A stretch of 64,000 bases of DNA from Maridesulfovibrio hydrothermalis AM13 = DSM 14728 (GTDB lineage: Bacteria; Desulfobacterota; Desulfovibrionia; Desulfovibrionales; Desulfovibrionaceae): NCBI RefSeq assembly GCF_000331025.1, contig NC_020055.1, positions 1,892,370-1,956,369 on the forward strand, written 5' to 3'. Below, one piece after another: positions 3,102 to 29,726 of the stretch (position 1 is its first letter; every line of letters starts with the position of its first letter). The notes under the pieces were generated by a model. The model had not been told where the DNA came from and did no database searches. It saw only the letters and a program-made list of their open reading frames with translations. The translations under genes were made by a program, and so were the position numbers.

Positions 3102-3179
<78 letters not shown>

Positions 3180-3283
3180 GCATCTGAAAAATGTTACCTG
3201 CTTCAGTGGCCTGAATCACTTTTATGAAGCTGGATTTGTAAATAAAGCCTTAGCTTGGCAGTGCTTAGGTCTTTATGTTGAGT

Positions 3284-3361
3284 TGGCGTCCCCAGGGGGA
3301 TTTGAACCCCCGTCGCCGGCGTGAAAGGCCGGTGTCCTGGGCCAGGCTAGACGATGGGGAC
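3284..3361 (-). tRNA. tRNA-Glu (TTC)
   Basis: 78 nt with encoded CCA; acceptor stem GTCCCCA/TGGGGAC, anticodon UUC. Identical in sequence to the copies at 3799-3876 and 3977-4054. Confidence 0.97.
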
Positions 3362-3431
3362 GCATCTCATATAGTAACTTGTTTCTGTGGCCTGAATCAC
3401 ATTTGATGAACCAAGTATTCTTTTTTTTAGC

Positions 3432-3506
3432 TGGCTGGGACACAAGGACTCGAACCTTGATTAACGGAACCAGAACCCGTCGTCCTGCCAATTGAACGAT
3501 GTCCCA
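3432..3506 (-). tRNA. tRNA-Gln (CTG)
   Basis: 75 nt with encoded CCA. The anticodon stem-loop ACGGG-TTCTGGT-TCCGT reads anticodon CUG. The acceptor stem is TGGGACA/TGTCCCA. It differs from the copy at 4073-4147 by one compensated acceptor pair (C-G here, T-A there). Confidence 0.95.
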
Positions 3507-3751
3507 GCAGCGAGAAAGAGTACTATGAATATTTGGTGTTGCTGTCAACAACTATCTGATAATTTTTTGAGAAAAGGTGAAGAGGGGGTGTCATCCTTGT
3601 CTTAAAGAGACTCTGCCTCAATGGCAAGGCGTTCGTTTTTATCAATAATAACGGATTTGAAATATTGCTAACGGGGTTGCAGCTTCTTTGTTTTGTGCGG
3701 CCTCGACTGCTACGTTTTGCTTGGGGGAGGCAGCGTAAGAAGCTTTTCCCT

Positions 3752-3789
3752 AAAAAACGAAAAGGACTGATTCTTGCGAATCAGTCCTT
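3752..3789 (-). terminator. Terminator between the two tRNA blocks
   Basis: A 12-bp stem, AAGGACTGATTC with GAATCAGTCCTT, closes a TTGC loop (3774-3777). On the minus strand it is followed shortly by TTTTTT. It sits after the upstream Gln-Glu-Glu block, so each block probably ends its own transcript. The stretch 3507-3751 between it and the next tRNA holds no gene I can see and must carry the second block's promoter. Confidence 0.8.
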
Positions 3790-3798
3790 GAAATTTCG

Positions 3799-3876
3799 TG
3801 GCGTCCCCAGGGGGATTTGAACCCCCGTCGCCGGCGTGAAAGGCCGGTGTCCTGGGCCAGGCTAGACGATGGGGAC
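3799..3876 (-). tRNA. tRNA-Glu (TTC)
   Basis: 78 nt with encoded CCA, anticodon UUC; identical to the copies at 3284-3361 and 3977-4054. Third gene of the upstream block. Confidence 0.97.
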
Positions 3877-3976
3877 GCATCTTAAATATAGTACCTGCTC
3901 CAGTGGCCTGAATCACTATGGTGGAGCTGGTTTCTTTTTCAAGACTCTGCTGGCGTTACGAGTCTTTGTTTTGAGT

Positions 3977-4054
3977 TGGCGTCCCCAGGGGGATTTGAAC
4001 CCCCGTCGCCGGCGTGAAAGGCCGGTGTCCTGGGCCAGGCTAGACGATGGGGAC
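3977..4054 (-). tRNA. tRNA-Glu (TTC)
   Basis: 78 nt with encoded CCA, anticodon UUC; identical to the copies at 3284-3361 and 3799-3876. It is separated by only 18 bases from the upstream tRNA-Gln, so the two share a transcript. Confidence 0.97.
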
Positions 4055-4072
4055 GCATCTCAAAAATGTTGT

Positions 4073-4147
4073 TGGCTGGGATACAAGGACTCGAACCTTG
4101 ATTAACGGAACCAGAACCCGTCGTCCTGCCAATTGAACGATATCCCA
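4073..4147 (-). tRNA. tRNA-Gln (CTG)
   Basis: 75 nt with encoded CCA, anticodon CUG, acceptor stem TGGGATA/TATCCCA. First gene of the minus-strand tRNA array. Confidence 0.95.
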
Positions 4148-17466: not shown

Positions 17467-17782
17467 AGTGATAAATTATAGAATCAGGAAGACTATGATA
17501 ATCCAACTTTAGTTGCAACAGACTTATAGATGATCTGTCTGCTGCAAATTACCTTTTTGTGTTGCTTATGGCGTAGAGTACGGGAGGTATGAAGGGAGAA
17601 AGCAAGGGGGGGGAAGTGCGGCTTTTAAGTAGTTATTGAGGTTAGTCATGTAACCCTTGAAATGATTGGTCATTTTAAGGATAGTCGTTTTGGGGTGATT
17701 GCAAAAATGTATTATTGATATTTTGTGACGTATTTAAGTCGGTAAATCCTTGCAAAAAAGTAATAAATTCTAAAAATGTTGT
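17467..17782. other. Gene-free region between rarD and the aromatic operon promoter
   Basis: No credible ORF is seen. It contains a G-rich run near 17607-17616 and a striking dyad at 17655-17680: CCTTgAAATGA, TTGG, TCATTTtAAGG, ten of eleven pairs. The dyad is about 100 bases upstream of the operon's promoter and could be an activator or repressor site. Confidence 0.45.
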
Positions 17783-17811
17783 TTGAAACATGGGGAGAAA
17801 GTAACAATAAT
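17783..17811 (+). promoter_or_regulatory. Sigma-70-type promoter of the aromatic operon
   Basis: TTGAAA (17783-17788), a 17-base spacer, and AATAAT (17806-17811) match the consensus at ten of twelve positions. Transcription would begin near 17818, inside an imperfect dyad at 17814-17833 (ACCAT...ATGGT), about 70 bases before the leader ORF. A second TTGACT at 17853 has no good -10. Confidence 0.65.
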
Positions 17812-17888
17812 CGACCATTATATTAATGATGGTAAAAAAATAAAGAAAGTTGTTGACTCTTTTTTGCAGGTTTGGTTACCTTACAGCC

Positions 17889-17990
17889 ATGCAGACTTTT
17901 AACACCCTTGGCGCCAGCCTCTCATATTTTTATTACTTTTATTTTTGGTGCACCCACGCTTGTGGTCGGGTGGAGGTTTGCTCGTTGTAA
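17889..17990 (+). CDS. Aromatic leader peptide (Tyr/Phe/Trp-rich attenuator ORF)
   Basis: A 33-codon ORF from ATG to TAA, not normally annotated. Codons 12-20 read SYFYYFYFW: four Tyr, three Phe and one Trp in eight consecutive codons, with one further Phe at codon 4. It lies between the operon's promoter and a strong intrinsic terminator, just before the aromatic amino acid genes. This is the layout of trpL/pheL-type attenuators, where a ribosome stalled by scarce charged tRNA frees an antiterminator. Here one peptide appears to read all three aromatic amino acids. The ribosome binding site before the ATG is weak; an in-frame TTG at 17853 is an alternative start that would keep the same control codons. 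Confidence 0.85.
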
Positions 17991-18022
17991 AAGTAATTAA
18001 GTACATAGCAAACGACCTCTAC
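17964..18022 (+). promoter_or_regulatory. Candidate antiterminator of the aromatic leader
   Basis: GTGGAG (17970-17975) pairs with CTCTAC (18017-18022) and GTTTGCT (17976-17982) with AGCAAAC (18007-18013), leaving a 3-base bulge. GGTC (17964-17967) can extend onto GGCC (18028-18031), which is part of the terminator's 5' arm. A competing small hairpin CACCC (17951-17955)/GGGTG (17968-17972) begins directly after the Trp codon. A ribosome stalled on the Tyr-Phe-Trp run would block CACCC and favour the antiterminator; one reaching the stop codon would cover the antiterminator's 5' strand. Folded by eye. Confidence 0.6.
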
Positions 18023-18024
18023 AG

Positions 18025-18068
18025 AAGGGCCGCAGGCGAAAATCGCCGGCGGCCCTTTTCTTTTTTTC
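18025..18068 (+). terminator. Attenuator terminator of the aromatic operon
   Basis: AAGGGCCGC (18025-18033) pairs with GCGGCCCTT (18049-18057). Inside it GGCGA (18035-18039) pairs with TCGCC (18043-18047) around AAA. TTTTCTTTTTTT follows. The first structural gene starts 60 bases downstream, so this terminator must be bypassed for expression. Confidence 0.92.
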
Positions 18069-18127
18069 AGGGGTCGCCAAGGGAGCGGGTCTTAAGTCTA
18101 AGAGGCGAACAGCAGGAGATTTTTAAA

Positions 18128-18928
18128 ATGCAGATTGGAAAAAGTATCAGACTGGAAAGGATTTTCAACCGTGATACTGAACGCACCATCATCGTACCTA
18201 TGGATCACGGCATAAGTGTCGGCCCTATTGAGGGTCTTCGGAATATGCGTGAAGCTGTCGGCGATATGGTTCAGGGCGGGGCCAATGCCGTTCTCGGACA
18301 TAAAGGACTCGTCCGCTGCGGTCACCGCATGGAAGGTCGCGATGTTGGTCTCATTATTCATCTTTCCGGTTCTACATCTCTCTCTCCTTTTCCCAATGCA
18401 AAAACTCTTGTCGGTACAGTTGAGGACGCTCTTCGTCTCGGTGCTGACGCTGTAAGTGTTCATTTAAACCTTGGTGATGAAACTGAAAGCCAGATGCTCA
18501 GTGATCTCGGTAAAGTCTCTTCCATTGCTACAGGCTGGGGGGTTCCGGTTCTGGCTATGGTTTACGCAAGAGGCCCTAAAATAAAAGACGAATTTGATCC
18601 TGAAATTGTTGCTCACTGCGCCCGTGTTGGTGAAGAGCTGGGAGCTGACATTGTGAAGGTCCCTTACACCGGTGACGTTGAATCTTTCAGCAGTGTTGTA
18701 GGCGGATGTTGTGTTCCGGTTGTGATTGCCGGCGGTCCTAAGCTTGATTCAACGCACGACTTTCTGCAGATGGTTTCAGATTCAATTACAGCAGGCGGTT
18801 CCGGTCTTTCTGTTGGAAGAAATGTGTTCCAGCATAAGAAGCGCATCAAGCTTGTAGAAGCTCTGCACAAAATTGTACATGAAGACGAAACCGTTGAAGC
18901 AGCCCTTGAATACATCGGCGAAGAGTAA
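18128..18928 (+). CDS. 2-amino-3,7-dideoxy-D-threo-hept-6-ulosonate (ADH) synthase
   Basis: A 266-residue class I aldolase-fold protein (DeoC/FbaB/LacD group). [31 protein letters not shown] and the Schiff-base Lys region [11 protein letters not shown] are visible. In the archaeal-type route this enzyme joins a deoxyketohexose phosphate to aspartate semialdehyde to make ADH, replacing DAHP synthase at the top of the shikimate pathway. Its partner, 3-dehydroquinate synthase II, is the next gene, which supports this over a simple fructose-bisphosphate aldolase. The start ATG 18128 is preceded by GGAG and follows the attenuator; frames extended further upstream would run through the terminator. 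First structural gene of the operon. Confidence 0.9.
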
Positions 18929-18945: not shown

Positions 18946-19929
18946 ATGAAAAAGATAATTTTCAAAGCAATACCGTTTGATAAAAACCTTGTGACTCTGG
19001 CCCTTGAGTCCGGCGTTGACGCTGTACTCACCACTCCGGAGCATAAGGAGGCAATCGAATCTCTGGGCCGGGTGACAGTGATCACTCCTGATGAGCTGCC
19101 CACAGTCGCTGTTAATGAAAAGGCGGATGAAGAAATCGCTGTAAACCTAGATCAGAAGGGTCGGGAAGTGTGTCTTGCCGCAGGCTGGGAAATCATTCCG
19201 GTTGAAAATATACTTGCGCAGGTTGAGACACTCGCTCTTGAAGCTGAATCACTTGATCGGGCAAGGCTTGCTGCCGGAGTGCTTGAGCGCGGAGCTGATA
19301 CCATTGTGGTCACTCCAGAAGGCGCACCGGATCTTAAGACAATCGTTGCAGAGCTTAAACTCAGTCAGGGTAAAATGGAATTACAGAAAGCAGTAGTAAC
19401 TGAAATTGAGTCTGCGGGGCTTGGACATCGTGTCTGCGTTGATACTATCTCCATGCTTAAGAAAGGGCAGGGAATGCTGACCGGCAACTCCAGCGCATTC
19501 ACCTTTCTTGTTCACGCTGAAACTGAATCCAACCCATACGTTGCGGCCCGTCCTTTCCGCATAAATGCCGGAGCTGTTCATGCATATGCCCAGATGCCCG
19601 GTGATAAGACTGCTTATCTTGAAGAACTTTCTTCCGGTACAGAAGTGCTTATCGTGGATGCTGACGGGAAAACCTCTGTAGCAGTTGTCGGCAGAAGTAA
19701 AATTGAAGTTCGTCCTATGCTGCTGATCACCGCAGAAGTTGCGACCGCAGCCGGTCCTGTTTCCGGCAAAGTCTTTTTGCAGAACGCAGAGACTATCAGA
19801 GTTGTCAGCAGTGACGGTGAGCCGGTAAGTGTGGTAACACTTAAAGTCGGTGATGAAATTATGTGTCGCCTTGATGATGCAGGACGTCATTTCGGAATGC
19901 GCATCAGCGAAGATATTGTCGAGGAATAA
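18946..19929 (+). CDS. 3-dehydroquinate synthase II
   Basis: A 327-residue enzyme of the archaeal-type DHQ synthase II family, unrelated to AroB. It oxidatively deaminates and cyclises ADH to 3-dehydroquinate using NAD+. Recognisable stretches are AVVTEIESAGLGHRVCVDT, GQGMLTGNSSAFTFLVHAE, RPFRINAGAVHAY and the C-terminal LDDAGRHFGM. The gene begins 17 bases after the ADH synthase gene. The rest of the common pathway (aroD, aroE, shikimate kinase, aroC) is not in the window. Residue identities were judged by eye; the family call is strong. Confidence 0.93.
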   Translation: MKKIIFKAIPFDKNLVTLALESGVDAVLTTPEHKEAIESLGRVTVITPDELPTVAVNEKADEEIAVNLDQKGREVCLAAGWEIIPVENILAQVETLALEAESLDRARLAAGVLERGADTIVVTPEGAPDLKTIVAELKLSQGKMELQKAVVTEIESAGLGHRVCVDTISMLKKGQGMLTGNSSAFTFLVHAETESNPYVAARPFRINAGAVHAYAQMPGDKTAYLEELSSGTEVLIVDADGKTSVAVVGRSKIEVRPMLLITAEVATAAGPVSGKVFLQNAETIRVVSSDGEPVSVVTLKVGDEIMCRLDDAGRHFGMRISEDIVEE

Positions 19930-19933
19930 TATA

Positions 19934-21037
19934 ATGTCAGAATCCAGCAAAAATGATTTGGGTAACCTCAGGAAAGAAATTGATACCCTTGATAGCAGTA
20001 TCCTTGAACTCCTTAACAAACGCGCCGCAGCTTCACTTGCTGTAGGCAAGCTCAAGGCCGGGTCTTCCGACCAGATTTTTAAGCCTTTCCGGGAGCAGGA
20101 AGTTCTGCGCGGGCTGACCGGACGAAATTCCGGCCCTTTACCGGGTGAGCATTTGGAAGCCATTTACCGCGAAATTATTTCATCTTCACGCAGATTGCAG
20201 CGGCCTGAAAGGGTTGTCTATCTAGGCCCTGAAGGAACCTTTTCATATTTTGCCGGACTCGAACACATGGGGCGTCAGGCCGGTTTGATTCCCAAGAATA
20301 ATTTTGAAGATATTTTTGTCGCTGTGTCCAAGGGTGAAGCCGACCTCGGCATCATTCCCCTTGAAAATTCACTCAAGGGCACAGTGGGGCAGAATGTTGA
20401 TCTTTTCATGCGCTATCCCGTCTATATTCAGGATGAGATATACAGCCGCATCAGTCACGGCCTTATCAGCAAAGGTGTCGGAATTGACGAGATCAAAACT
20501 GTCTATTCACACTCCAAGGCATTAGAGCAATGCACCGGATGGCTTCGGGCCAACTTGCCCGGTGCAAAGCTCGTGTCTGTGGATTCCACTGCCAAAGCTG
20601 CCGAAATGGTCGCTGAAAGTGACGAGCCGTGTGCGGCACTGGGTAACATTAAGCTGGCAAATATATTCGGCCTGCACGTTGTGGCTGAAGCCATCGAAGA
20701 TTTACCTGATAACTGGACAAGGTTTCTGATCATCGGGCCAAAGCCGGGCATTGAAGGTAAAAGAGATAAAACAACAATACTTTTCACCACTCCGGACCGG
20801 CCCGGTGCATTGGTCAGTGTGCTTAACGAGCTTTCCGGCAAGGATATCAACCTGACCAAACTGGAATCACGCCCATTTCTCGGTGAGAAGTGGAAGTATA
20901 TGTTTTTTGTAGACCTTCAGGGTGATCTCACTGCGGAAGAGTATGAAAGTCTCATTGAGGATCTTAAGGGGCGTTGTCTGACGTTTAAAATTCTGGGCAG
21001 TTATCCCGGCGGTTCGCAAAACAGCAGTAAATTTTAG
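19934..21037 (+). CDS. pheA: Chorismate mutase / prephenate dehydratase (P-protein)
   Basis: A 367-residue bifunctional enzyme for phenylalanine synthesis. Residues 1 to about 90 are an AroQ-type chorismate mutase (LRKEIDTLDSSILELLNKRA). The prephenate dehydratase domain follows (YLGPEGTFSYFA, GIIPLENSLKGTV, and TRFLIIG as the usual T-R-F motif). The end is an ACT regulatory domain (KTTILFTTPDRPGALVSVL, LTKLESRP), which normally binds phenylalanine. The start ATG 19934 uses a GAGGA site that overlaps the stop of the previous gene, so translation is probably coupled. The frame can extend upstream, but that would overlap DHQ synthase II. Confidence 0.96.
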   Translation: MSESSKNDLGNLRKEIDTLDSSILELLNKRAAASLAVGKLKAGSSDQIFKPFREQEVLRGLTGRNSGPLPGEHLEAIYREIISSSRRLQRPERVVYLGPEGTFSYFAGLEHMGRQAGLIPKNNFEDIFVAVSKGEADLGIIPLENSLKGTVGQNVDLFMRYPVYIQDEIYSRISHGLISKGVGIDEIKTVYSHSKALEQCTGWLRANLPGAKLVSVDSTAKAAEMVAESDEPCAALGNIKLANIFGLHVVAEAIEDLPDNWTRFLIIGPKPGIEGKRDKTTILFTTPDRPGALVSVLNELSGKDINLTKLESRPFLGEKWKYMFFVDLQGDLTAEEYESLIEDLKGRCLTFKILGSYPGGSQNSSKF

Positions 21038-21099: not shown

Positions 21100-22434
21100 A
21101 TGACTTCTGATAAATACATAAAAATCAAAGCTCCTTCATCAAAGTCCCTGTCACACAGGGCGCTTATTGCGGGCGCGCTTTCAGAAGGGACCACTGTTGT
21201 GCTGGACCCGCTGGACAGCAATGATATCAATCGCACTATGGATTGCCTTAGTACAATGGGCGCAAAATTCCATGTGGATGCCGGTACGACCAATGTAACA
21301 GGCATGACCTCCGGCCCTAAAGGCGGGCAGAAGGAACCTGAAATTCTTGAAATGCGTGATTCCGGTACCACTTGCAGGCTGATCACTGCTCTGGCAGGTG
21401 CTGGCAAAGGACTTTTCCGCATACAGGGAACTCCGCGTATGCATGACCGTCCCATCGGCGCACTGACCGATGCCCTTGAATCTCAAGGCGTAAAGGTCAC
21501 CTTTTCCGATAAAGACGGCTACCCTCCGGTAACTCTCGAAGCTGATGGATTCAGCGGGCGTGAGATGGATATCTCTCTTGAAGAGTCCAGTCAGTATCTT
21601 TCAGGTCTGTTGCTTGCTGCGCCGCTTGCTCATGAAACTGCCATTATTAATGTCGTAGGTAAAAAAGCTGTATCATGGCCTTATGTAGCCCTGACTCTTA
21701 ACGTAATGGAAGATTTCAGAGTTTCATTCGAAGTTGAAACCATGCAGGATGGAACGTGGACCAAGGCCGACTGGAGAATGGTTGAAAAGGTTATTCCCGG
21801 TGAAATTCGTTTCCGGGTCAACCCTTCACCATATCAACGTGATGAATACCGTGTGGAAGGTGACTGGTCTAACGCATCATATTTTCTGGCAGCCGGGGCG
21901 GTCGGTAATAAAGCTGTTAAGATTGAAGGGTTGTCCACGGACTCACTTCAAGGTGATCGGGCGATTATGGGCATCCTTGAGTCTATGGGGGCACGGATTG
22001 AGAGTGATTCAAGCGGAGTAATTGTTCACCCTTCCAAATTGCACGGAGTTGAGGTAGACATGGGACTCTGTCCGGACCTCGTCCCCACAGTTGCGGTTGC
22101 AGCGGCTTTTGCTGACAGCCCGACCACCATTACAAATGTTGCTCATTTGCGTATTAAAGAATGTGACCGTCTTGAAGCAAGTGCTGCCGAGGTCATGAGA
22201 GCTGGCGGCAAGGCTGAGATGACTGATGATTCCATCACCATTATTCCCGGCAGGTTGAAAAAAACTGAGAGAATTGTTTTCTCCACTTATGACGATCATC
22301 GTCTGGCCATGAGTACCGCAATTTTTTCGCTGGCTGGTATAGAAGCTATCCCCGAAGAACCGGGATGTGTAAATAAATCATTCCCCGGATTCTGGGATGA
22401 ATGGGCAAAAGTAACCAAAGGAAATGGTTGTTAA
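21100..22434 (+). CDS. aroA: 3-phosphoshikimate 1-carboxyvinyltransferase (EPSP synthase)
   Basis: A 444-residue enzyme that joins shikimate 3-phosphate with PEP. The N-terminal APSSKSLSHRALIAGALSEG, the LDSNDINRTMDC segment, RDSGTTCRL (the usual G-N-A-G-T region is varied to D-S-G-T-T), and HLRIKECDRL and YDDHRLAMS near the C-terminus are visible. The altered loop suggests a class II-like or divergent EPSP synthase. It starts 62 bases after pheA with a modest AGG site and overlaps or abuts tyrA at its end. Confidence 0.95.
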   Translation: MTSDKYIKIKAPSSKSLSHRALIAGALSEGTTVVLDPLDSNDINRTMDCLSTMGAKFHVDAGTTNVTGMTSGPKGGQKEPEILEMRDSGTTCRLITALAGAGKGLFRIQGTPRMHDRPIGALTDALESQGVKVTFSDKDGYPPVTLEADGFSGREMDISLEESSQYLSGLLLAAPLAHETAIINVVGKKAVSWPYVALTLNVMEDFRVSFEVETMQDGTWTKADWRMVEKVIPGEIRFRVNPSPYQRDEYRVEGDWSNASYFLAAGAVGNKAVKIEGLSTDSLQGDRAIMGILESMGARIESDSSGVIVHPSKLHGVEVDMGLCPDLVPTVAVAAAFADSPTTITNVAHLRIKECDRLEASAAEVMRAGGKAEMTDDSITIIPGRLKKTERIVFSTYDDHRLAMSTAIFSLAGIEAIPEEPGCVNKSFPGFWDEWAKVTKGNGC

Positions 22435-23212
22435 AATGGAATGCGAGTTTAATAAAATACACAGCATAGCCGTCATCGGGTCCAGAGGACAGATGGGTGG
22501 CTTCCTTGCGCTCAAAGCTGAGCGTGCGGGTGTACTCGTACATCGTTTTGATCAGCCGATTGATGAAGCTGAACTTGCGCGATTACTTCCGGCTACCGAT
22601 TTTGTCCTGCTGTGCATTCCCGTAACAGTGATGGATGATGTACTGCCAAGAATTGTTCCGCATATGAAGAAGGGGGCAGTCCTTTCCGATGTAGGGTCCG
22701 TTAAAGGCCGGCCTTTGCAGCAGATGATCAGGGCTTACGATGGCCCTGTGGTGGGAACTCATCCTCTTTTCGGTCCGGTTATTCCGGCGGACTTCGATCC
22801 GACCGTTGCTCTCGTTGCCGGACGTGAGGAGGATAGAAGCTCTATTCTGGCGGTCAAAGACTTTTTTGAACGTCTGGATTTAGGTGCATTTGAGTCTACA
22901 GTGGAAGAGCATGACAAAGCTATGGCGATGATTCAGGCTTTGAATTTCAGCTCGACAATTGCTTTTCTGGCCTGTTCCAGAGAAATTCCTAATATTGAAA
23001 AATTTGTAACCCCGTCTTTCAAACGCAGACTTGAGTCTGCAAATAAGATGGTGACACAGGACAGCGATCTTTTCGTAACTATTTCTGATGCAAATCAGTA
23101 CAGCCACGAAGCAATTCGCCTGTTCCGTTCTTTTCTCTCCCTTGCAGCTGCTGGTGATATGGACCTTCTTGCCGGCCGTGCTTCCTGGTGGTGGCGTGAA
23201 AACAGTACCTAG
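22424..23212 (+). CDS. tyrA: Prephenate dehydrogenase
   Basis: A 262-residue NAD(P)-dependent enzyme of tyrosine synthesis. It has a Rossmann start (IAVIGSRGQMGGFLA), VLLCIPVTVMDDVLPRI, DVGSVKG and GTHPLFGP, the motifs of the TyrA family. There is no chorismate mutase domain, which fits, since the mutase is fused to pheA. Two starts are possible: ATG 22424, overlapping aroA by 11 bases, and ATG 22436, one base after its stop. The AAAGGA site is too close to the first and rather far from the second, so the sequence does not decide. A strong terminator follows, setting this first half of the cluster apart from the trp genes. Confidence 0.9.
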   Translation: MVVKMECEFNKIHSIAVIGSRGQMGGFLALKAERAGVLVHRFDQPIDEAELARLLPATDFVLLCIPVTVMDDVLPRIVPHMKKGAVLSDVGSVKGRPLQQMIRAYDGPVVGTHPLFGPVIPADFDPTVALVAGREEDRSSILAVKDFFERLDLGAFESTVEEHDKAMAMIQALNFSSTIAFLACSREIPNIEKFVTPSFKRRLESANKMVTQDSDLFVTISDANQYSHEAIRLFRSFLSLAAAGDMDLLAGRASWWWRENST

Positions 23213-23236
23213 GGAGAAGTGTATCTGAAAAAGATT

Positions 23237-23271
23237 AAGCCGCATTCTCCCGTGAGAATGCGGCTTTTTTT
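23237..23271 (+). terminator. Internal terminator between tyrA and trpE
   Basis: AAGCCGCATTCTC pairs perfectly with GAGAATGCGGCTT around CCGT, followed by TTTTTT. It lies between two halves of what otherwise looks like one operon. No convincing second promoter or leader ORF was found in the 86 bases before trpE. Confidence 0.9.
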
Positions 23272-23357
23272 ATATTAAAAATTGGTGTGAGTACTTATAG
23301 TTTTTAGAGGGGACCGTCTACTCATCACCGAAGCGCATCAAAAATGGAGAAATGAAC

Positions 23358-24773
23358 ATGAAAATTGAATTAACGCAGTACGGCAAATGGTTGCCGGCTG
23401 ATACGCAGACCCCGATCAGCCTCTATCTGGGGCTGGTGGGGGATGCGCCCGGAATATTGCTGGAAAGTGCTGAAGTTGACGGCCGTCTTGGCCGTTACAG
23501 CCTGATCGCATGGGATTTCAGACTTAAGCTTTCGCCTGTGCGTGGAAAATTGTCTGTGGAATGTGCTGATTCCAGATTGGCCGGGCTGGCGAGTTATTCA
23601 GGCATGGATTTTCTTGAGGGGCTGCGTGCAGTGATGAAGGCTCTGCATGTTAATACCCATGCGGAAGTTGGAGAGCTTCCTGCACTTACCCGCGGTCTTT
23701 ATGGAACACTTGGTTACGGCATTGCCGGTATGCTTGAGCCTAAACTTAAAGATAAACTGCCTGCTGAAGATGCTGAGGTCCGTCTTGCTCTGCCGGGCAG
23801 GGTGGTTCTGTATGATCATCTGAAGCATAGCTGCTGTTTTCTATCTTTGGATAAAGGTGCTGTTCCCGAGTTTACTCCTCCTGTTTTCGGAGCTGTGTGT
23901 GAATCTACAACAGTCGGTGAACCTGTGGCTGTTCCGGGGCGTGAAAAATATATTGAAGGTGTGAATAAAGTTCGGGATTTGATTGCTGAGGGTGAGTGCA
24001 TTCAGGTAGTGCTTTCCACCCGTTTTTCAGCTCCGTTCAGCGGTGATTCTTTCGATCTGTACCGCAGGCTGCGTCAGGCTAATCCTTCACCGTTCATGTT
24101 TTATATGAAATTCAGCCGTGAGGAAATTCTGCTTGGTTCATCCCCTGAAATGATGGCCCGTTGCGAAAGGGGCAGACTGGAGGTCCGGCCCATCGCCGGA
24201 ACCCGTCCGCGCGGTAAGGATGCAGCCGGAGACCGCAAGTATGCTGAAGAACTTCTTGCTGACCCTAAAGAGTGCGCTGAACATGTTATGCTGGTCGACC
24301 TTGGCCGGAATGACCTTGGGCGTATTGCCAAGCCCGGTTCTGTTTCAGTGGAAAAGTTTATGCAGATTGAATACTTCAGCCACGTTATGCACATCACATC
24401 TTATGTGGAGGCAGATCTTCGTGATGATCATGATGCAATTGATGTTTTGCAGGCCACCTTTCCGGCGGGGACTCTTTCCGGTGCACCTAAGATCAGGGCT
24501 ATGGAGATCATTTCTGAAATCGAGGAGGTTCCCCGCGGTCCCTACGGCGGCTGCATCGGCTTTATCGGCCTTGATAAGGATGCCATCAATCTGGATACCG
24601 GAATCACCATCCGTTCCATGTGGATTCGTGACGGCAAATGTCACTGGCAGGCCGGGGCCGGAATTGTCTATGATTCCGATCCTGAAATGGAATGGCTTGA
24701 GTGTAATAACAAGGCTAGAGTTTTAAGGGAAATTTTGCAGTCGGAGGGCGGAGATGTTTTTACTCGTGGATAA
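23358..24773 (+). CDS. trpE: Anthranilate synthase component I
   Basis: A 471-residue chorismate-binding enzyme of tryptophan synthesis; it makes anthranilate from chorismate with ammonia supplied by TrpG. The C-terminal catalytic half shows IQVVLSTRF, PSPFMFYMKF, GSSPEMMAR, RPIAGTRPRG, HVMLVDLGRNDLGRI and FPAGTLSGAPKIRAMEII. The N-terminal half carries an LLESAEVDGRLGRYS segment, the LLES-type element involved in tryptophan feedback binding. ATG 23358 is preferred to ATG 23352 because GGAG is eight bases before the former and only two before the latter. Its end overlaps trpG by 20 bases. Confidence 0.95.
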   Translation: MKIELTQYGKWLPADTQTPISLYLGLVGDAPGILLESAEVDGRLGRYSLIAWDFRLKLSPVRGKLSVECADSRLAGLASYSGMDFLEGLRAVMKALHVNTHAEVGELPALTRGLYGTLGYGIAGMLEPKLKDKLPAEDAEVRLALPGRVVLYDHLKHSCCFLSLDKGAVPEFTPPVFGAVCESTTVGEPVAVPGREKYIEGVNKVRDLIAEGECIQVVLSTRFSAPFSGDSFDLYRRLRQANPSPFMFYMKFSREEILLGSSPEMMARCERGRLEVRPIAGTRPRGKDAAGDRKYAEELLADPKECAEHVMLVDLGRNDLGRIAKPGSVSVEKFMQIEYFSHVMHITSYVEADLRDDHDAIDVLQATFPAGTLSGAPKIRAMEIISEIEEVPRGPYGGCIGFIGLDKDAINLDTGITIRSMWIRDGKCHWQAGAGIVYDSDPEMEWLECNNKARVLREILQSEGGDVFTRG

Positions 24774-25326
24774 TTTTGATTCGTTCACCTTCAATCTGGT
24801 TCAGGCATTTCAGCAGTTAGGTGCTGAGCCGCTGGTACTGCGCAATGACCGTGAAGACATTCTGGAACTGGCTGAGTCCGGTAAGCTGAAAAGAGTTTGC
24901 CTTTCGCCCGGTCCCAGCCGTCCTGAGAATGCAGGACTGTCACTGGAATTTTTAAGCCGATTATCCAAAGATGTTCCTGTTCTAGGTGTTTGTCTCGGTC
25001 ACCAGACTCTTGGATATCACGGTGGGGCTTCAATTGTGAGGGCCGGACGTATCATGCATGGCAAGACTTCTGCCGTTTTTCATAAAAAAGAAGGACTTTT
25101 CAGCGGGATGGACGATCCATTTCAGGTCTGCCGTTACCATTCACTGGTGGTCAATGTTGATGAAGCACCAGATATGATGGAACTGACCGCCTGGACAGGA
25201 CAGCGTGAAGTTATGGGGATGCGTTATAAAGATCGTCCCTGGGCGGGGGTGCAGTTTCACCCTGAATCCATTCTGACTCCAGACGGTCCGAAGCTTTTGA
25301 AAAACTTTTTGGACGGCAATATTTAG
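24754..25326 (+). CDS. trpG: Anthranilate synthase component II (glutamine amidotransferase)
   Basis: A 190-residue class I glutamine amidotransferase. The catalytic triad is visible: Cys in VLGVCLGHQTLGYH, and His and Glu in GVQFHPESILTPDG. DNFDSFTFNLVQ at the start is typical of TrpG/PabA. Starting inside the end of trpE, with GGAG just before ATG 24754, it is translationally coupled to its partner. It is not fused to trpD. In principle it could also serve a PabB, but the context is plainly tryptophan. Confidence 0.95.
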   Translation: MFLLVDNFDSFTFNLVQAFQQLGAEPLVLRNDREDILELAESGKLKRVCLSPGPSRPENAGLSLEFLSRLSKDVPVLGVCLGHQTLGYHGGASIVRAGRIMHGKTSAVFHKKEGLFSGMDDPFQVCRYHSLVVNVDEAPDMMELTAWTGQREVMGMRYKDRPWAGVQFHPESILTPDGPKLLKNFLDGNI

Positions 25327-25363
25327 CCGCTATCATTAATATATAAGGACAAAGGTGAACAAA

Positions 25364-26353
25364 ATGTCTCAAATTGTAAGCGAAGCCCTGCTGTTACTGT
25401 CTTCGGGGCAGGATCTGAGCACCGAACAGGCGGACGCTGTTTTTGAAGAACTTTTTTCGGGCGATATGACTAATGCGCAGGCCGGAGCTTTGCTCATGGG
25501 GTTGCGCGCTAAAGGTGAAACAGCAATTGAAGTTGCTGCCGGAGTCCGTGCCGCTCTGCGTGAAGCGAAGCTGATAAAAGGCTTGAACAGCAAACGTATT
25601 GATACCTGCGGTACTGGCGGTGACGGTTCGAACAGTTTCAACTGTTCAACTGCGGTGGCTCTTTATCTGGCTGATATGGGGTACGAAGTTGTAAAACACG
25701 GTAACAGGGCAGTTTCTTCTTCCTGCGGCAGTGCTGATGTGCTGGAAGATCTTGGCATCTCGCTTGGCACAACTGCGGGAGAGGCCAAAGGTGTTCTGAC
25801 TGATGATAAGTTCGTGTTTCTTTTTGCTCCCAATTACCATCCGGCATTCGGTAAAATTGCGCCGATTCGAAAAGAACTGAGCATTCCGACTTTATTTAAT
25901 CTCATGGGGCCGCTTCTTAACCCTGCCCGCCCGACCCATCAGGTTCTAGGTGTAGGCAGACCGGAGGTTATGCGTCTCATGGCAGAAGTTCTGGCTTTGA
26001 CCGATGTGGAAAAAGCGTATGTCGTGCACGGGGCAGGGGCTTTTGACGAACTGACTCCGTTTGGCGTTAACGATGCCTTTCTGGTCGAAAACGGGAAGCT
26101 GACTGAGGTCAGGATTGACCCTGCTGATTATGGTTTTGCTGCTGCCAGCCCTGAAGATGTAGCAGTCAAAGATCGTCCTGAAGCATTGGCAGCTATCCGC
26201 AAAGTTCTTGCCGGGACGGCTCCCTCGGCCATGCTTGATATGGTTGCGCTGAACCTTGGCGCAGCGGTTTCGCTGCTTGACGGCACTTCTCTTGAAGTTG
26301 CCATGAATAAAGCCAAAGCCAAAGTCGCCAAGGGCGTTGATAAGGAATACTGA
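25364..26353 (+). CDS. trpD: Anthranilate phosphoribosyltransferase
   Basis: A 329-residue enzyme that transfers phosphoribose from PRPP to anthranilate. The PRPP site is visible as [17 protein letters not shown], with [18 protein letters not shown] and a downstream LGVGRPE. The ATG 25364 has AAAGG eight bases upstream; a GTG nine bases earlier overlaps that site and is less likely. It lies 37 bases after trpG and 3 bases before trpC. Confidence 0.95.
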
Positions 26354-26356
26354 GTC

Positions 26357-27136
26357 ATGCTTGAAAAATTCCGTAAATCAAAACAACCGGAAGTGGATAT
26401 GCTCCGCAAATGTGAAGCTGAAGGAACACTTCCCGCTCCATATGAAGGGCAGCGTATTTCCTTTGCTGATGCTGTTAAACGTGATGAATCAGGTATGAAG
26501 GTCATCGCTGAGTACAAGCGTGCTTCTCCGGCGAAGGGGGATATTAACCTTGGGCTGAGCGCGGCGGATGTTGCGGGGATGTATGCGAGGGGCGGTGCTT
26601 CAGCTATTTCGGTGCTTACTGAGCATAAGTATTTCAAAGGTGATTTGTCTTACCTTGAAGAAATAAAATCCTGCGGCCTGCCTATGCTGCGTAAAGATTT
26701 TCTTGTGGACCCCTTGCAGGTTGTTCAGACTTTGTCGACTCCTGCTTCAGCTCTGCTTGTTATTGTACGCATGTTCGCTGATGACGATAAACTCAAAGAG
26801 ATGATCGATAAGGCTAATGAATGCGGCCTTGATGCAGTGGTGGAAGCGTTTGACATGACGGATCTGATACGGGCTAAAAAAGCTGGTGCTGAGATTATCC
26901 AGATTAACAACCGTGACCTTGATACATTGGGTGTTGATATGAGTCGCTCTGTAGAGTTTATCAGGGAAAAGGCTGAGGGTGAAATCTGGATTTGTGCCAG
27001 CGGTATCGCTGAGCCTGAAGATTGTGCGCAGATGGCTCGGCTCGGCTATGATTGTGTACTGGTGGGCACATCCATTATGTCCAGTCCAGATCCGCAGTCT
27101 AAACTTGCTGCGCTTGTGGCCGGAGCGTCCTCGTGA
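26357..27136 (+). CDS. trpC: Indole-3-glycerol-phosphate synthase
   Basis: A 259-residue TIM-barrel enzyme that closes the indole ring. VIAEYKRASPAKGDI holds the catalytic Lys region, followed by SAISVLTEHKYFKG, LPMLRKDFLVDPLQV (second catalytic Lys) and IQINNRDLDTL. It is a stand-alone enzyme, not fused with trpF, whose gene begins at the stop codon. Start ATG 26357 uses an AGGAA site that overlaps the end of trpD. Confidence 0.96.
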   Translation: MLEKFRKSKQPEVDMLRKCEAEGTLPAPYEGQRISFADAVKRDESGMKVIAEYKRASPAKGDINLGLSAADVAGMYARGGASAISVLTEHKYFKGDLSYLEEIKSCGLPMLRKDFLVDPLQVVQTLSTPASALLVIVRMFADDDKLKEMIDKANECGLDAVVEAFDMTDLIRAKKAGAEIIQINNRDLDTLGVDMSRSVEFIREKAEGEIWICASGIAEPEDCAQMARLGYDCVLVGTSIMSSPDPQSKLAALVAGASS

Positions 27137-27771
27137 GTCTGCTGGTTAAAGTTTGCGGCATGACCCGCTTGGAAGATGCGATAGCCTGCGAAGAGCTGGG
27201 AGCTGATTTTCTGGGGTTCATTTTCCATGCTTCCAGTCCACGCAATGTTGATAAGGAATTTGCCGGTTCCTTCAAGCCTGCCAAGGCCAGAAAGGTCGGT
27301 GTTTTCGTCAGGCAGAGCGCGGCGGAAGTGCTGGAGATTGTGAAAGGCGGCCATTTTGATTTTGCGCAGCTTCACGGAGGGCAGAATGAGCAGTTCTGCA
27401 AGACTGTAGGCAGAGAGAGGGTTATCAAAGTTCTGTGGCCGCAGCGTTATGAGTCAGTTAGAGAGTTTCAGGCTGATATTGATCGTTTTGCGCCGTTTTG
27501 CGCTTACATGCTTTTTGATGCCGGAAATAGCGGAGGAGGGCATGGAAAATCGCTGGCCTTTGATATCTTTAAAGATGTTACCATACCGTTGCCGTGGCTG
27601 CTTGCCGGAGGGCTTTGCGCAGAGAATTTAACTAAGGCTGTTGATATGGCAAAGCCGTACGGGGTTGACCTCAACTCCGGCGTGGAATCGGCTCCCGGTA
27701 TTAAAGATAAAAATAAATTGAGTGCTGCATTTGAATGCATCCGCTCAGATAAGATGAGGAAAGAGTCATGA
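27133..27771 (+). CDS. trpF: Phosphoribosylanthranilate isomerase
   Basis: A 212-residue TIM-barrel enzyme. The general-base Cys lies in LVKVCGMTRLEDA and the downstream Asp in YMLFDAGNSGGGHGKS; the C-terminal LAGGLCAENL and VDLNSGVESAPG follow the family pattern. It begins with GTG 27133, overlapping the trpC stop codon by four bases, and its own stop overlaps the trpB ATG in the same way. These overlaps indicate coupled translation of trpC, trpF and trpB. Confidence 0.94.
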   Translation: MSLLVKVCGMTRLEDAIACEELGADFLGFIFHASSPRNVDKEFAGSFKPAKARKVGVFVRQSAAEVLEIVKGGHFDFAQLHGGQNEQFCKTVGRERVIKVLWPQRYESVREFQADIDRFAPFCAYMLFDAGNSGGGHGKSLAFDIFKDVTIPLPWLLAGGLCAENLTKAVDMAKPYGVDLNSGVESAPGIKDKNKLSAAFECIRSDKMRKES

Positions 27772-28946
27772 AAAAAGGATATTTTGGAGATTTTGGTGGA
27801 CAATTTGTTCCTGAACTGCTCATGCCGCCCTTGCTTGAACTTGAAGAGGCTGTGGAAAAAATAGTTCACTCAGATGAGTTTCAGCAGGAATTCACCCGTC
27901 TGCTTACCGACTTTGTGGGCCGCCCCACTGCATTGACTCATTGCGCGAATATTTCCCGCGAGCTGGGATTCAATCTTTGGCTTAAGCGTGAAGACCTTGC
28001 GCATACCGGAGCGCACAAGGTTAACAATACCGTAGGTCAGGCTCTGCTTACTAAAATGATGGGCAAGCCCAGAATGCTGGCTGAAACCGGAGCCGGGCAG
28101 CACGGTGTTGCTACCGCAACAGCTGCGGCGTTGCTTGATCTTGAATGTGAAATTTATATGGGTGCTATTGATGTAAAGCGTCAGTCCCATAACGTACGCC
28201 GTATGGAACTGCTCGGGGCCAGATGTATTCCTGTTGAGTCCGGTACTCAGACTCTTAAAGATGCGATCAATGCGGCAATGCGGGTCTGGATTGCTAATCA
28301 GCAGACTACCCATTATTGCTTTGGCACTGCAGCGGGGGCGCATCCGTTTCCGCTTCTGGTCCGTGAATTTCAGTCTGTAATCGGGCGTGAAGCCAAAGCT
28401 CAGTTCAAGGAGAAAACGGGAGAGATGCCATATATGGTAGTTGCCTGCGTCGGCGGCGGATCAAATGCTATAGGCATGTTCCATGAGTTTGTCGAAGAAG
28501 AGTCCGTCAAAATAGTCGGCGTTGAAGCTGCCGGAACAGGTGAACCGGGCTGTACTAACTCCGCGCCGATCAATCTCGGAACTCCCGGAGTGCTGCATGG
28601 TATGAATACTTTGCTGCTCCAGACTGAGGAGGGACAGATCATGCCTTCCCATTCAATTGCTCCCGGGCTTGATTATCCCGGCGTTGGCCCTGAACATGTG
28701 CATCTGCACGATATCGGACGTGCGCAATACGGAACTGTCAACGATCATCAGGCCTTGAATGCCTTTCAGATGCTTTGCCGTAAGGAGGGAATTTTGCCTG
28801 CTCTTGAAAGTTCCCATGCTGTTGCATGGGTGCTGGAGAATAGAAAATCCATCCCCAAAGATGCCAATGTCATAGTTAATTTATCCGGTCGCGGTGACAA
28901 GGATATGGGTATTCTTGAAGAGTACCTGAATAAGCACGGAAAATAG
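27768..28946 (+). CDS. trpB: Tryptophan synthase beta chain
   Basis: A 392-residue pyridoxal-phosphate enzyme of the TrpB1 type that joins indole with serine. The PLP Lys is in REDLAHTGAHKVNNTVGQ, the phosphate-binding loop is VGGGSNAIGMFHEF, and AETGAGQHGVATATA is the conserved substrate-carboxylate region. The length and the N-terminal FGDFGGQFVPELL are standard for the form that complexes with TrpA, whose gene follows after 12 bases. Start ATG 27768 overlaps the trpF stop. Confidence 0.97.
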   Translation: MKKGYFGDFGGQFVPELLMPPLLELEEAVEKIVHSDEFQQEFTRLLTDFVGRPTALTHCANISRELGFNLWLKREDLAHTGAHKVNNTVGQALLTKMMGKPRMLAETGAGQHGVATATAAALLDLECEIYMGAIDVKRQSHNVRRMELLGARCIPVESGTQTLKDAINAAMRVWIANQQTTHYCFGTAAGAHPFPLLVREFQSVIGREAKAQFKEKTGEMPYMVVACVGGGSNAIGMFHEFVEEESVKIVGVEAAGTGEPGCTNSAPINLGTPGVLHGMNTLLLQTEEGQIMPSHSIAPGLDYPGVGPEHVHLHDIGRAQYGTVNDHQALNAFQMLCRKEGILPALESSHAVAWVLENRKSIPKDANVIVNLSGRGDKDMGILEEYLNKHGK

Positions 28947-28958
28947 TGGAGCTATATA

Positions 28959-29726
28959 ATGAGTATTACCAAACTTGCAGATAAAATTAATGAGGCAAAA
29001 GCACAGGGACGCACAGCACTGATCCCGTTTCTGCCCGGTGGATATCCAAGTCGCGACCAGTTCTGGAAGGAGATTATTGAGCTGGACGAAAACGGGGCGG
29101 ATATAATCGAAATAGGCATGCCTTTTTCCGATCCCGTGGCCGATGGGCCGGTGGTCGAAGCCGCGTCACTCAAGTGCCTTGATGACGGTATTGGCCTTAA
29201 ATGGATTCTGGCAGGGCTTTTAGAGAACCGCGCTGGAATCAATGCCGGAATAGTGCTTATGGGGTATTTCAATCCGGTATTGCAGTTCGGTTTGGAAAAA
29301 TTTGCAAAGGAAGCTCACGCAGCCGGAGTTAACGGCTTGATTATTGCCGATCTGCCGTTTGAAGAAGGTGTGGAATTCCGCGGTATTTTAGCAAAGTATG
29401 ACATTGCACTTATTCCATTGGTCGGGTTGAATACCAGTCCTGAACGCATGGCACTGTATGCTGAAGGCGGTAACGGGTTCTGCTACTATGTATCAGTGCT
29501 CGGAACCACCGGTGACCGTGACAGTCTGCCCGGGGAGATCAAGGCCGGACTGGCACAGGCGCAGGATGTTTTTGATATTCCCGTAGCACTCGGTTTTGGG
29601 CTAAAGCACCCGTCACAGCTTGAAGCACTGGACGGTCTGGTAGACGCAGCTGTATTCGGATCTGCGCTTATCCGTCATATTGATGCGGGGAAAAGCAGCG
29701 CGGAATTTATGAAAATCTGGAAATAA
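28959..29726 (+). CDS. trpA: Tryptophan synthase alpha chain
   Basis: A 255-residue TIM-barrel subunit that releases indole from indole-3-glycerol phosphate to the beta chain. The catalytic Glu and Asp are seen in ADIIEIGMPFSDPVADGPV, and GFCYYVSVLGTTGDRD and VALGFGLKHPSQ are conserved. Start ATG 28959 follows TGGAG. It is the last gene of the aromatic cluster; a small CCC-TGC-GGGG hairpin with TTTTT and a long perfect palindrome come directly after. Confidence 0.96.
   Translation: MSITKLADKINEAKAQGRTALIPFLPGGYPSRDQFWKEIIELDENGADIIEIGMPFSDPVADGPVVEAASLKCLDDGIGLKWILAGLLENRAGINAGIVLMGYFNPVLQFGLEKFAKEAHAAGVNGLIIADLPFEEGVEFRGILAKYDIALIPLVGLNTSPERMALYAEGGNGFCYYVSVLGTTGDRDSLPGEIKAGLAQAQDVFDIPVALGFGLKHPSQLEALDGLVDAAVFGSALIRHIDAGKSSAEFMKIWK

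Follow-up and report, generated by a model that had tools for sequence, protein, structure and literature searches.

Could one leader peptide sense three amino acids at once, at the common entry of the pathway that makes all of them? The question is raised by a locus of Maridesulfovibrio hydrothermalis AM13 = DSM 14728, within a stretch of 64,000 nucleotides that is called the window here (features lie on its + strand unless stated otherwise). Downstream of a short aromatic-rich reading frame, a cluster of twelve aro/phe/tyr/trp genes is found on the + strand. The first structural gene (18128-18928) encodes 2-amino-3,7-dideoxy-D-threo-hept-6-ulosonate synthase (ADH synthase; TIGR01949, 393.9 bits for a cut-off of 299.45). 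It is followed by the genes of 3-dehydroquinate synthase II (18946-19929; NF002628, PF01959), chorismate mutase/prephenate dehydratase (19850-21037 as the ORF is listed, the true start probably lying further in), the EPSP synthase AroA (21100-22434; TIGR01356) and the prephenate dehydrogenase TyrA (22424-23212; PF02153 above its cut-off, the NCBIfam matches all below theirs), and then by trpE, trpG, trpD, trpC, trpF, trpB and trpA (23352-29726). Elsewhere in the window, on the - strand (3102-4147), there is an array of six tRNAs, four tRNA-Glu(UUC) and two tRNA-Gln(CUG), in apparently duplicated units. A preliminary description of the locus had proposed that a single multivalent Tyr/Phe/Trp attenuator heads this archaeal-type operon, and the proposal is supported by the conservation of the aromatic run and of the antiterminator stem, and by a leader content that tracks the operon. 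Judged from the sequences compared, the operon head is very probably a transcription attenuator that works through the ribosome and responds to several amino acids.

The leader peptide ORF has 33 codons, from the ATG at 17889 to the stop codon at 17988-17990, just as the preliminary description gave its start, stop and peptide, and it has counterparts in relatives. The aromatic run described there was likewise recovered: codons 13-20 (17925-17948) read YFYYFYFW, that is, eight aromatic codons in a row, which by sequence and comparison are the putative control codons. When the 300 b upstream of the ADH synthase gene were shuffled 1000 times with dinucleotides preserved, no ORF with eight aromatic residues in nine arose, and the RNA of 17872-18075 folds with z = -5.2. 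The intrinsic terminator that had been placed before the first structural gene is also present (18025-18067); its hairpin spans 18025-18058 (-26.8 kcal/mol), its U-rich tract extends to 18067, and some 60 b separate it from the ATG at 18128. The suggestion that the Tyr:Phe:Trp ratio of 4:3:1 sets the relative sensitivity was rejected, because the residue composition of the leader varies, even inside the genus; per 16-residue stretch, the 32 leaders of full operons contain 1-7 F, 1-5 Y and 1-3 W.

Is the leader conserved? The alignment with relatives that had been put forward as a check was carried out, and relatives retain both the run of aromatic residues and the pairing of the stem. ADH synthase matches with E <= 1e-30 occur in 289 of the 297 genomes drawn from the order Desulfovibrionales. 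Each of the 28 relatives with 700 b of upstream sequence (L003-L031; L012, with 206 b upstream, was left out of the count) shows an aromatic leader, located roughly between -250 and -120. The 191 loci fetched were reduced to 172 distinct ones by dropping duplicates and one short locus. Among them, 146 have an ORF with at least five aromatic residues in nine; at the same threshold, no leader was called in the other 26 of the 172, which counts against the attenuator. With at least six aromatics in nine within 300 b, a leader was found in 129 of the 172 loci versus 13 of 3440 shuffles. In a sample of the phylum, 67 of 198 genomes, seven of them of this order, gave a match with E <= 1e-40. Outside the order, an aromatic leader together with a terminator was found in 20 of 23 loci from the 30 best-scoring loci kept, and one of the three loci without a leader has only 34 b upstream. 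The antiterminator of these outside loci beats nearly all shuffles (<=5/100 as good) in just 9/20, which is counted against the attenuator. The outside loci (L197-L219) also have other C-terminal peptide motifs, GLPTVS and CASTFKS, and by eye a GAGG/GGAG-like stretch precedes the ATG in several of their leaders.

The conserved promoter is located at 17853-17882 according to the genus alignment, and is composed of a -35 box TTGACT (17853-17858), a spacer of 17-18 nt and a weak -10-like TTACCT/TACCTT (17876-17882). TTGAC is found within -300 to -200 in all 16 genus sequences, the one from the window included. The preliminary description had pointed to another promoter, TTGAAA-N17-AATAAT at 17783-17811. 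Its letters are present, and as a conserved promoter it fails: both boxes, with no more than one mismatch each and the 17-nt spacer, occur in the window's own sequence alone of the 16. Across the order, 77 of 146 leaders have a TTGAC that begins 35-40 nt 5' of their start, versus 16 of 1051 other ATGs of the same regions. An SD-like tetramer, defined as GGAG, GAGG, AGGA, AAGG or GGTG at -17 to -5, is found in just 7 of these 77. A second group consists of 38 leaders with TTGAC 48-62 nt off, 30 of which have the tetramer, and the remaining 31 of the 146 leaders show neither spacing. The leader of the window belongs to the 35-40 nt design. With such a spacing the transcript is predicted to begin at or beside the leader AUG, and therefore the conserved promoter implies that about half of the leaders would be on leaderless mRNA. 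A similar arrangement is given for the trpL of Sinorhizobium meliloti, where the 5' end of the leader transcript is the AUG of the leader ORF (PMC7298713); the start predicted here would be alike, but trpL is a Trp leader.

The terminator faces a larger competing structure. The inner stem B (17970-17982 paired with 18007-18022) closes on itself inside an outer stem A, whose 5' strand (17957-17967) lies in the His-Ala-Cys-Gly codons of the leader and whose 3' strand (18028-18038) is a shared arm that the terminator also uses within its own 5' arm; stem A was located by folding and alignment, stem B by folding. The whole antiterminator reaches -36.3 kcal/mol versus -26.8 for the terminator. A pairing at 17964-18022 had been noticed in the preliminary description, which lies near the inner stem B, but the outer stem A, the one that competes with the terminator, had been missed. 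Also absent from that description were the predicted leaderless design, the Phe-only and Tyr-only leaders of paralogues and the proposed internal Trp attenuator. In the order the 5' arm of the terminator often reads GGGCCGCAGGC and pairs with the codons right after the aromatic run; in the window, the 5' strand of stem A comprises the Ala-Cys-Gly codons directly past the run. The spacing is regular as well: stem A begins a median of 6 nt past the last aromatic codon, and this codon ends 4-9 nt before the stem in 125 of 142 loci.

These 142 loci are those left of the 172 after loci were dropped for want of a leader, a terminator or the spacing. Their antiterminator duplex averages -20.2 kcal/mol versus -12.1 for shuffled strands, with no more than 1/50 shuffles as good in 122 of the 142 and at least 2/50 in the other 20. 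A short ORF with product codons, an intrinsic terminator and a conserved antiterminator exclusive of it are all found here; the exceptions are L082, L084 and L176, in which the duplex is no better than shuffles. Within the genus stem A shows hardly any variation and is too conserved to show covariation, so a wider MAFFT alignment was used, of the 131 loci that remained when eleven members of the window's genus had been removed. Here the stem A pairs are kept in 90.4% of 1434 cells versus 36-41% with one strand slid by 1-3 columns, and two-sided changes were counted in 64 cells versus a mean of 28.5 and a maximum of 40 over 500 shuffles. Most informative is the pair 17961 x 18034, which is TA in 83 loci, CG in 28, TG in 12, AT in four and otherwise in four. 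In the arm of L038, L108, L127 and L130, CUG replaces CAG, together with CAG replacing CUG in the leader and Ser replacing Cys in the peptide, while both CAG and Cys are retained in L077, which belongs to the genus of L038. In the terminators of 93 of the 131 loci, the arm base 18034 forms no standard pair; unpaired there yet paired in the antiterminator, it is therefore suggested to be conserved for the antiterminator's sake. The position 18034 x 18048 of the terminator stem is an A.G (55) or G.G (26) mismatch in 81 of the 131 loci, whereas the antiterminator pairs this arm base in 127 of the 131; the mismatch may tune the switch. When arms were permuted among 45 cores, the mean observed for the own arms lay beyond all 5000 trials. 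The own arm was best or tied in just 7/45 cores, a weak result that is counted against the attenuator.

How could a ribosome act on this structure? Only the RNA downstream of the ribosome was folded, with the 3' end at 18041 and an assumed ribosome footprint. In this nascent-RNA fold, stem A forms with P 0.98-0.99 when one of codons 13-19 is in the A site, with P 0.94 at the Trp codon 20 and 0.85 at codon 21 (fewer pairs being countable for 20-21), and with P 0.01 at codon 22. Since P falls past codon 20, the aromatic run ends about where masking begins, and in this occlusion model with its assumed footprint the placement of the control codons fits, a stall freeing the antiterminator strand and completion masking it. 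Once the 3' arm of the terminator is complete, the terminator prevails at equilibrium for all the ribosome states modelled (P 0.98). Equilibrium folding was consequently discarded as a test of the switch and the nascent ribosome-free RNA folded instead; since the equilibrium always favours the finished terminator, the switch must be kinetic, the order of events deciding, as in known attenuators. RNA that is not translated also forms the antiterminator at 18041 (P 0.99), which counts against the attenuator. A possible strand 1 (17891-17907) can pair with 17968-17981 and so hide the antiterminator strand in untranslated RNA; it folds in such nascent RNA with 3' ends at 17985-18025, and the antiterminator is favoured at 18041.

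In the mechanism that we infer, with regard to start site, leader translation, starvation response and the hierarchy of two attenuators, RNA polymerase would start at or beside the leader AUG and a ribosome would bind to the leader, probably a leaderless one. Were Tyr-, Phe- or Trp-tRNA scarce, this ribosome would stall within codons 13-20 and free the downstream strand (the Ala-Cys-Gly codons plus GGUGGAGGUUUGC), which would pair with the 5' arm of the terminator while the 3' arm is still to be made, letting transcription proceed into the aro/phe/tyr/trp cluster. With all three aromatics plentiful, the ribosome would cover the antiterminator strand and the terminator would form. The amino acids sensed would follow the genes controlled, and a second attenuator inside the operon, with the WWWR tail of TyrA as its leader peptide, would make the trp genes respond to Trp alone.

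Leader content does track gene content. We classed 80 loci, of up to 16.6 kb each, by the genes that they contain. Where trpE is in the cluster, all 32 leaders (27 genera) contain each of F, Y and W. Of the 28 clusters with no trpE in reach, 16 still have W in the leader (L067 being doubtful); W therefore needs no trpE next door, which is counted against the attenuator reading. Stand-alone ADH synthase genes have a leader in 14 of 20 cases and none in six, and 12 of the 14 leaders lack W. Note that two of the 14, L050 and L055, with four aromatics in nine, were admitted by hand because of their Tyr runs; excluding them, a leader is found in 12 of the 20 stand-alone copies, 10 of the 12 being without W. 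The leader call of L061 is doubtful, as is that of L067. In Fisher's tests, whose p ignores kinship, trpE clusters differ from stand-alone copies with 2e-9 (3e-8 without the two admitted by hand), and clusters with trpE from those without with 2e-5. The two stand-alone leaders with W are L096, in a genome without another match, and L086, on a contig that ends soon after the gene. Some stand-alone leaders are Phe-only (L039, L078) or Tyr-only (L050, L055, L059, L082), which suggests isoenzyme-specific attenuation of these copies by a single amino acid.

The same leaders bear on whether the head attenuator senses one residue and carries the other two as passengers. The leader of Corynebacterium glutamicum aroR is a precedent, as its Phe-Tyr-Phe answers to Phe and not to Tyr according to the review PMC11802643, and the single W of the window stands at the end of the run, with stem A already partly covered by the ribosome there (the P of 0.94, from fewer pairs). 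On the other hand, F, Y and W are all kept in the 32 trpE clusters though their order and number change, and those stand-alone leaders among the classed loci that lack F or lack Y are just the Phe-only and Tyr-only ones. We consider a sensor of one residue improbable. Much fainter still is the chance that the peptide itself acts, by nascent-chain arrest or as a small protein in trans, with the RNA structure secondary. The C-terminal Ala-Cys-Gly (or Ala-Arg-Gly) recurs widely, and the peTrpL of S. meliloti acts in trans (PMC7298713); but the recurring tail residues coincide with the strand of stem A, the CUG-for-CAG arm goes with the Ser-for-Cys peptide while L077 retains both original forms, and much of the remaining peptide drifts between genera. 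As to a T-box or another riboswitch in place of a leader peptide, the existence of a terminator and an antiterminator ahead of amino acid genes would suit it, whereas Rfam gives no T-box or riboswitch match in the window, and we regard it as hardly credible. At gathering score, no Rfam match besides the six tRNAs was found in the whole window. A relaxed scan of 17700-18140 gave nine matches, all below gathering score and of other kinds, the best being ctRNA_p42d (27 of 50 bits) over the terminator. The amino acid operon leader families of Rfam matched neither at gathering score nor in this relaxed scan. The multivalent attenuator is the reading preferred for the operon head.

Does the operon contain a second attenuator, between tyrA and trpE? 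The TyrA of the window ends in ...RASWWWRENST, and its WWWR codons (23186-23197) are candidate control codons, the C-terminus of the enzyme being a candidate Trp leader. A terminator at 23237-23273, with a hairpin at 23237-23266 (-21 kcal/mol) and a U tract, starts 24 nt past the stop codon, and by folding an internal antiterminator (23212-23251) pairs 23212-23221 with 23241-23251. It forms with P 0.83 with the ribosome at any of the three Trp codons, still does so at the next two, and becomes less probable with the ribosome at the sixth tail codon or beyond. Where trpE comes after tyrA, WWW is found in 25 of 32 TyrA tails. Of these 25 tails with WWW, 23 have WWWR and 21 a terminator 17-50 nt past the stop. 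WWW is also found in 8 of 16 tails with no trpE downstream, and among these eight there is neither WWWR (0/8) nor a terminator (0/8). The tyrA and trpE genes overlap in five loci, with only WW in L049, L056, L058 and L111, and WWW in L079.

An ordinary end-of-unit terminator, with WWW being a structural feature of TyrA only, would explain why half of the tails without trpE downstream have WWW, and would fit the overlapping L079 with its WWW as well as L038, L065 and L077, where WWWR is present and the terminator was not found. The internal antiterminator, too, beats nearly all shuffles (<=5/100 as good) in only 14 of the 23 loci with the terminator. Against this explanation stands the contrast just given, of frequent WWWR and terminator with trpE downstream versus neither of them without it. 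Moreover, in 10 of 19 loci of genomes with trpE elsewhere than after tyrA, free-standing WWW leaders precede trpE. The peptides of these free-standing leaders are those of L222-L229, L238 and L240. An ordinary terminator is a possible but rather unlikely account, and a second, Trp-only attenuator with the tail of TyrA as its leader appears likely.

Taken as a whole, we lean towards the view that the aromatic supraoperon of Desulfovibrionales is governed by two stacked codon-reading attenuators, a Phe/Tyr/Trp leader at the head, often leaderless, and a Trp leader in the TyrA tail, and that Phe-only and Tyr-only versions on duplicated entry enzymes, together with these, would fill the role played in E. 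coli by feedback-specific isoenzymes and by repressors. With the switch at the head, a shortage of any one of tyrosine, phenylalanine and tryptophan would lead the cell to make all three. If this is true, the order provides a natural series for comparing leader codons with the genes under their control: the full operon goes with three aromatics, some duplicated entry enzymes go with Phe or Tyr alone, and the trp segment goes with Trp alone. The series would make the idea that codon content encodes the specificity of regulation testable both by evolution and by mutation, and it suggests that the tail of a structural protein can be drafted as a leader peptide.

Among known systems, the ilvGMEDA and thr leaders read several amino acids. 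They resemble the present leader in that one leader serves several amino acids that are products of the operon, and differ from it in that these are branched-chain amino acids and threonine, not three aromatics. In the rph-pyrE attenuator of E. coli, an upstream structural gene is the translated leader and UTP is sensed via pausing. It is like the proposed role of the TyrA tail in that a structural gene is the leader, but it works by UTP and pausing and not by control codons. In PMC1183508, ilvGMEDA, thr and pheA are mentioned as cases of attenuation. As background, the E. coli trpL and pheL share with the present case a short ORF with control codons, an exclusive antiterminator and terminator, and a logic that depends on stalling. 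However, each of them senses one amino acid, while here apparently three are sensed, at the common entry of the pathway and without an Rfam match. Both are treated as leader-peptide attenuators in the review PMC11802643.

In the open-access literature covered, the aroR-aroF leader of C. glutamicum (Neshat 2014, cited through the review PMC11802643) is the nearest one that was found before a first-step aromatic gene. It likewise places aromatic codons before such a gene, but the enzyme and the phylum are different, and no Trp codons are described for it in the available portion of PMC11802643. In an Actinobacteria survey, no conserved RNA structures are given for phenylalanine or tyrosine operons there (PMC1262725, available text), and the word 'aromatic' does not occur in the available text of PMC2965389. 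For Desulfovibrio vulgaris, a relative, a putative attenuator (from Merino's website) was listed in 2005 before aroA'-aroB'-pheA-aroF-tyrA-trp, in Table 7 of PMC1173090. The gene order is the same and attenuation was already predicted; the available text of PMC1173090 mentions neither control codons nor a second tier, and 'leader peptide' has no occurrence in it. In the open-access literature covered, with subscription journals mostly outside, no account was found of the leader peptide, of its codon logic or of the Trp leader in the TyrA tail. What is already known, then, is ribosome-mediated attenuation as a kind, and what is putatively new is a sensor of three aromatics that matches the gene content, together with a leaderless design and a leader formed by the tail of an enzyme.
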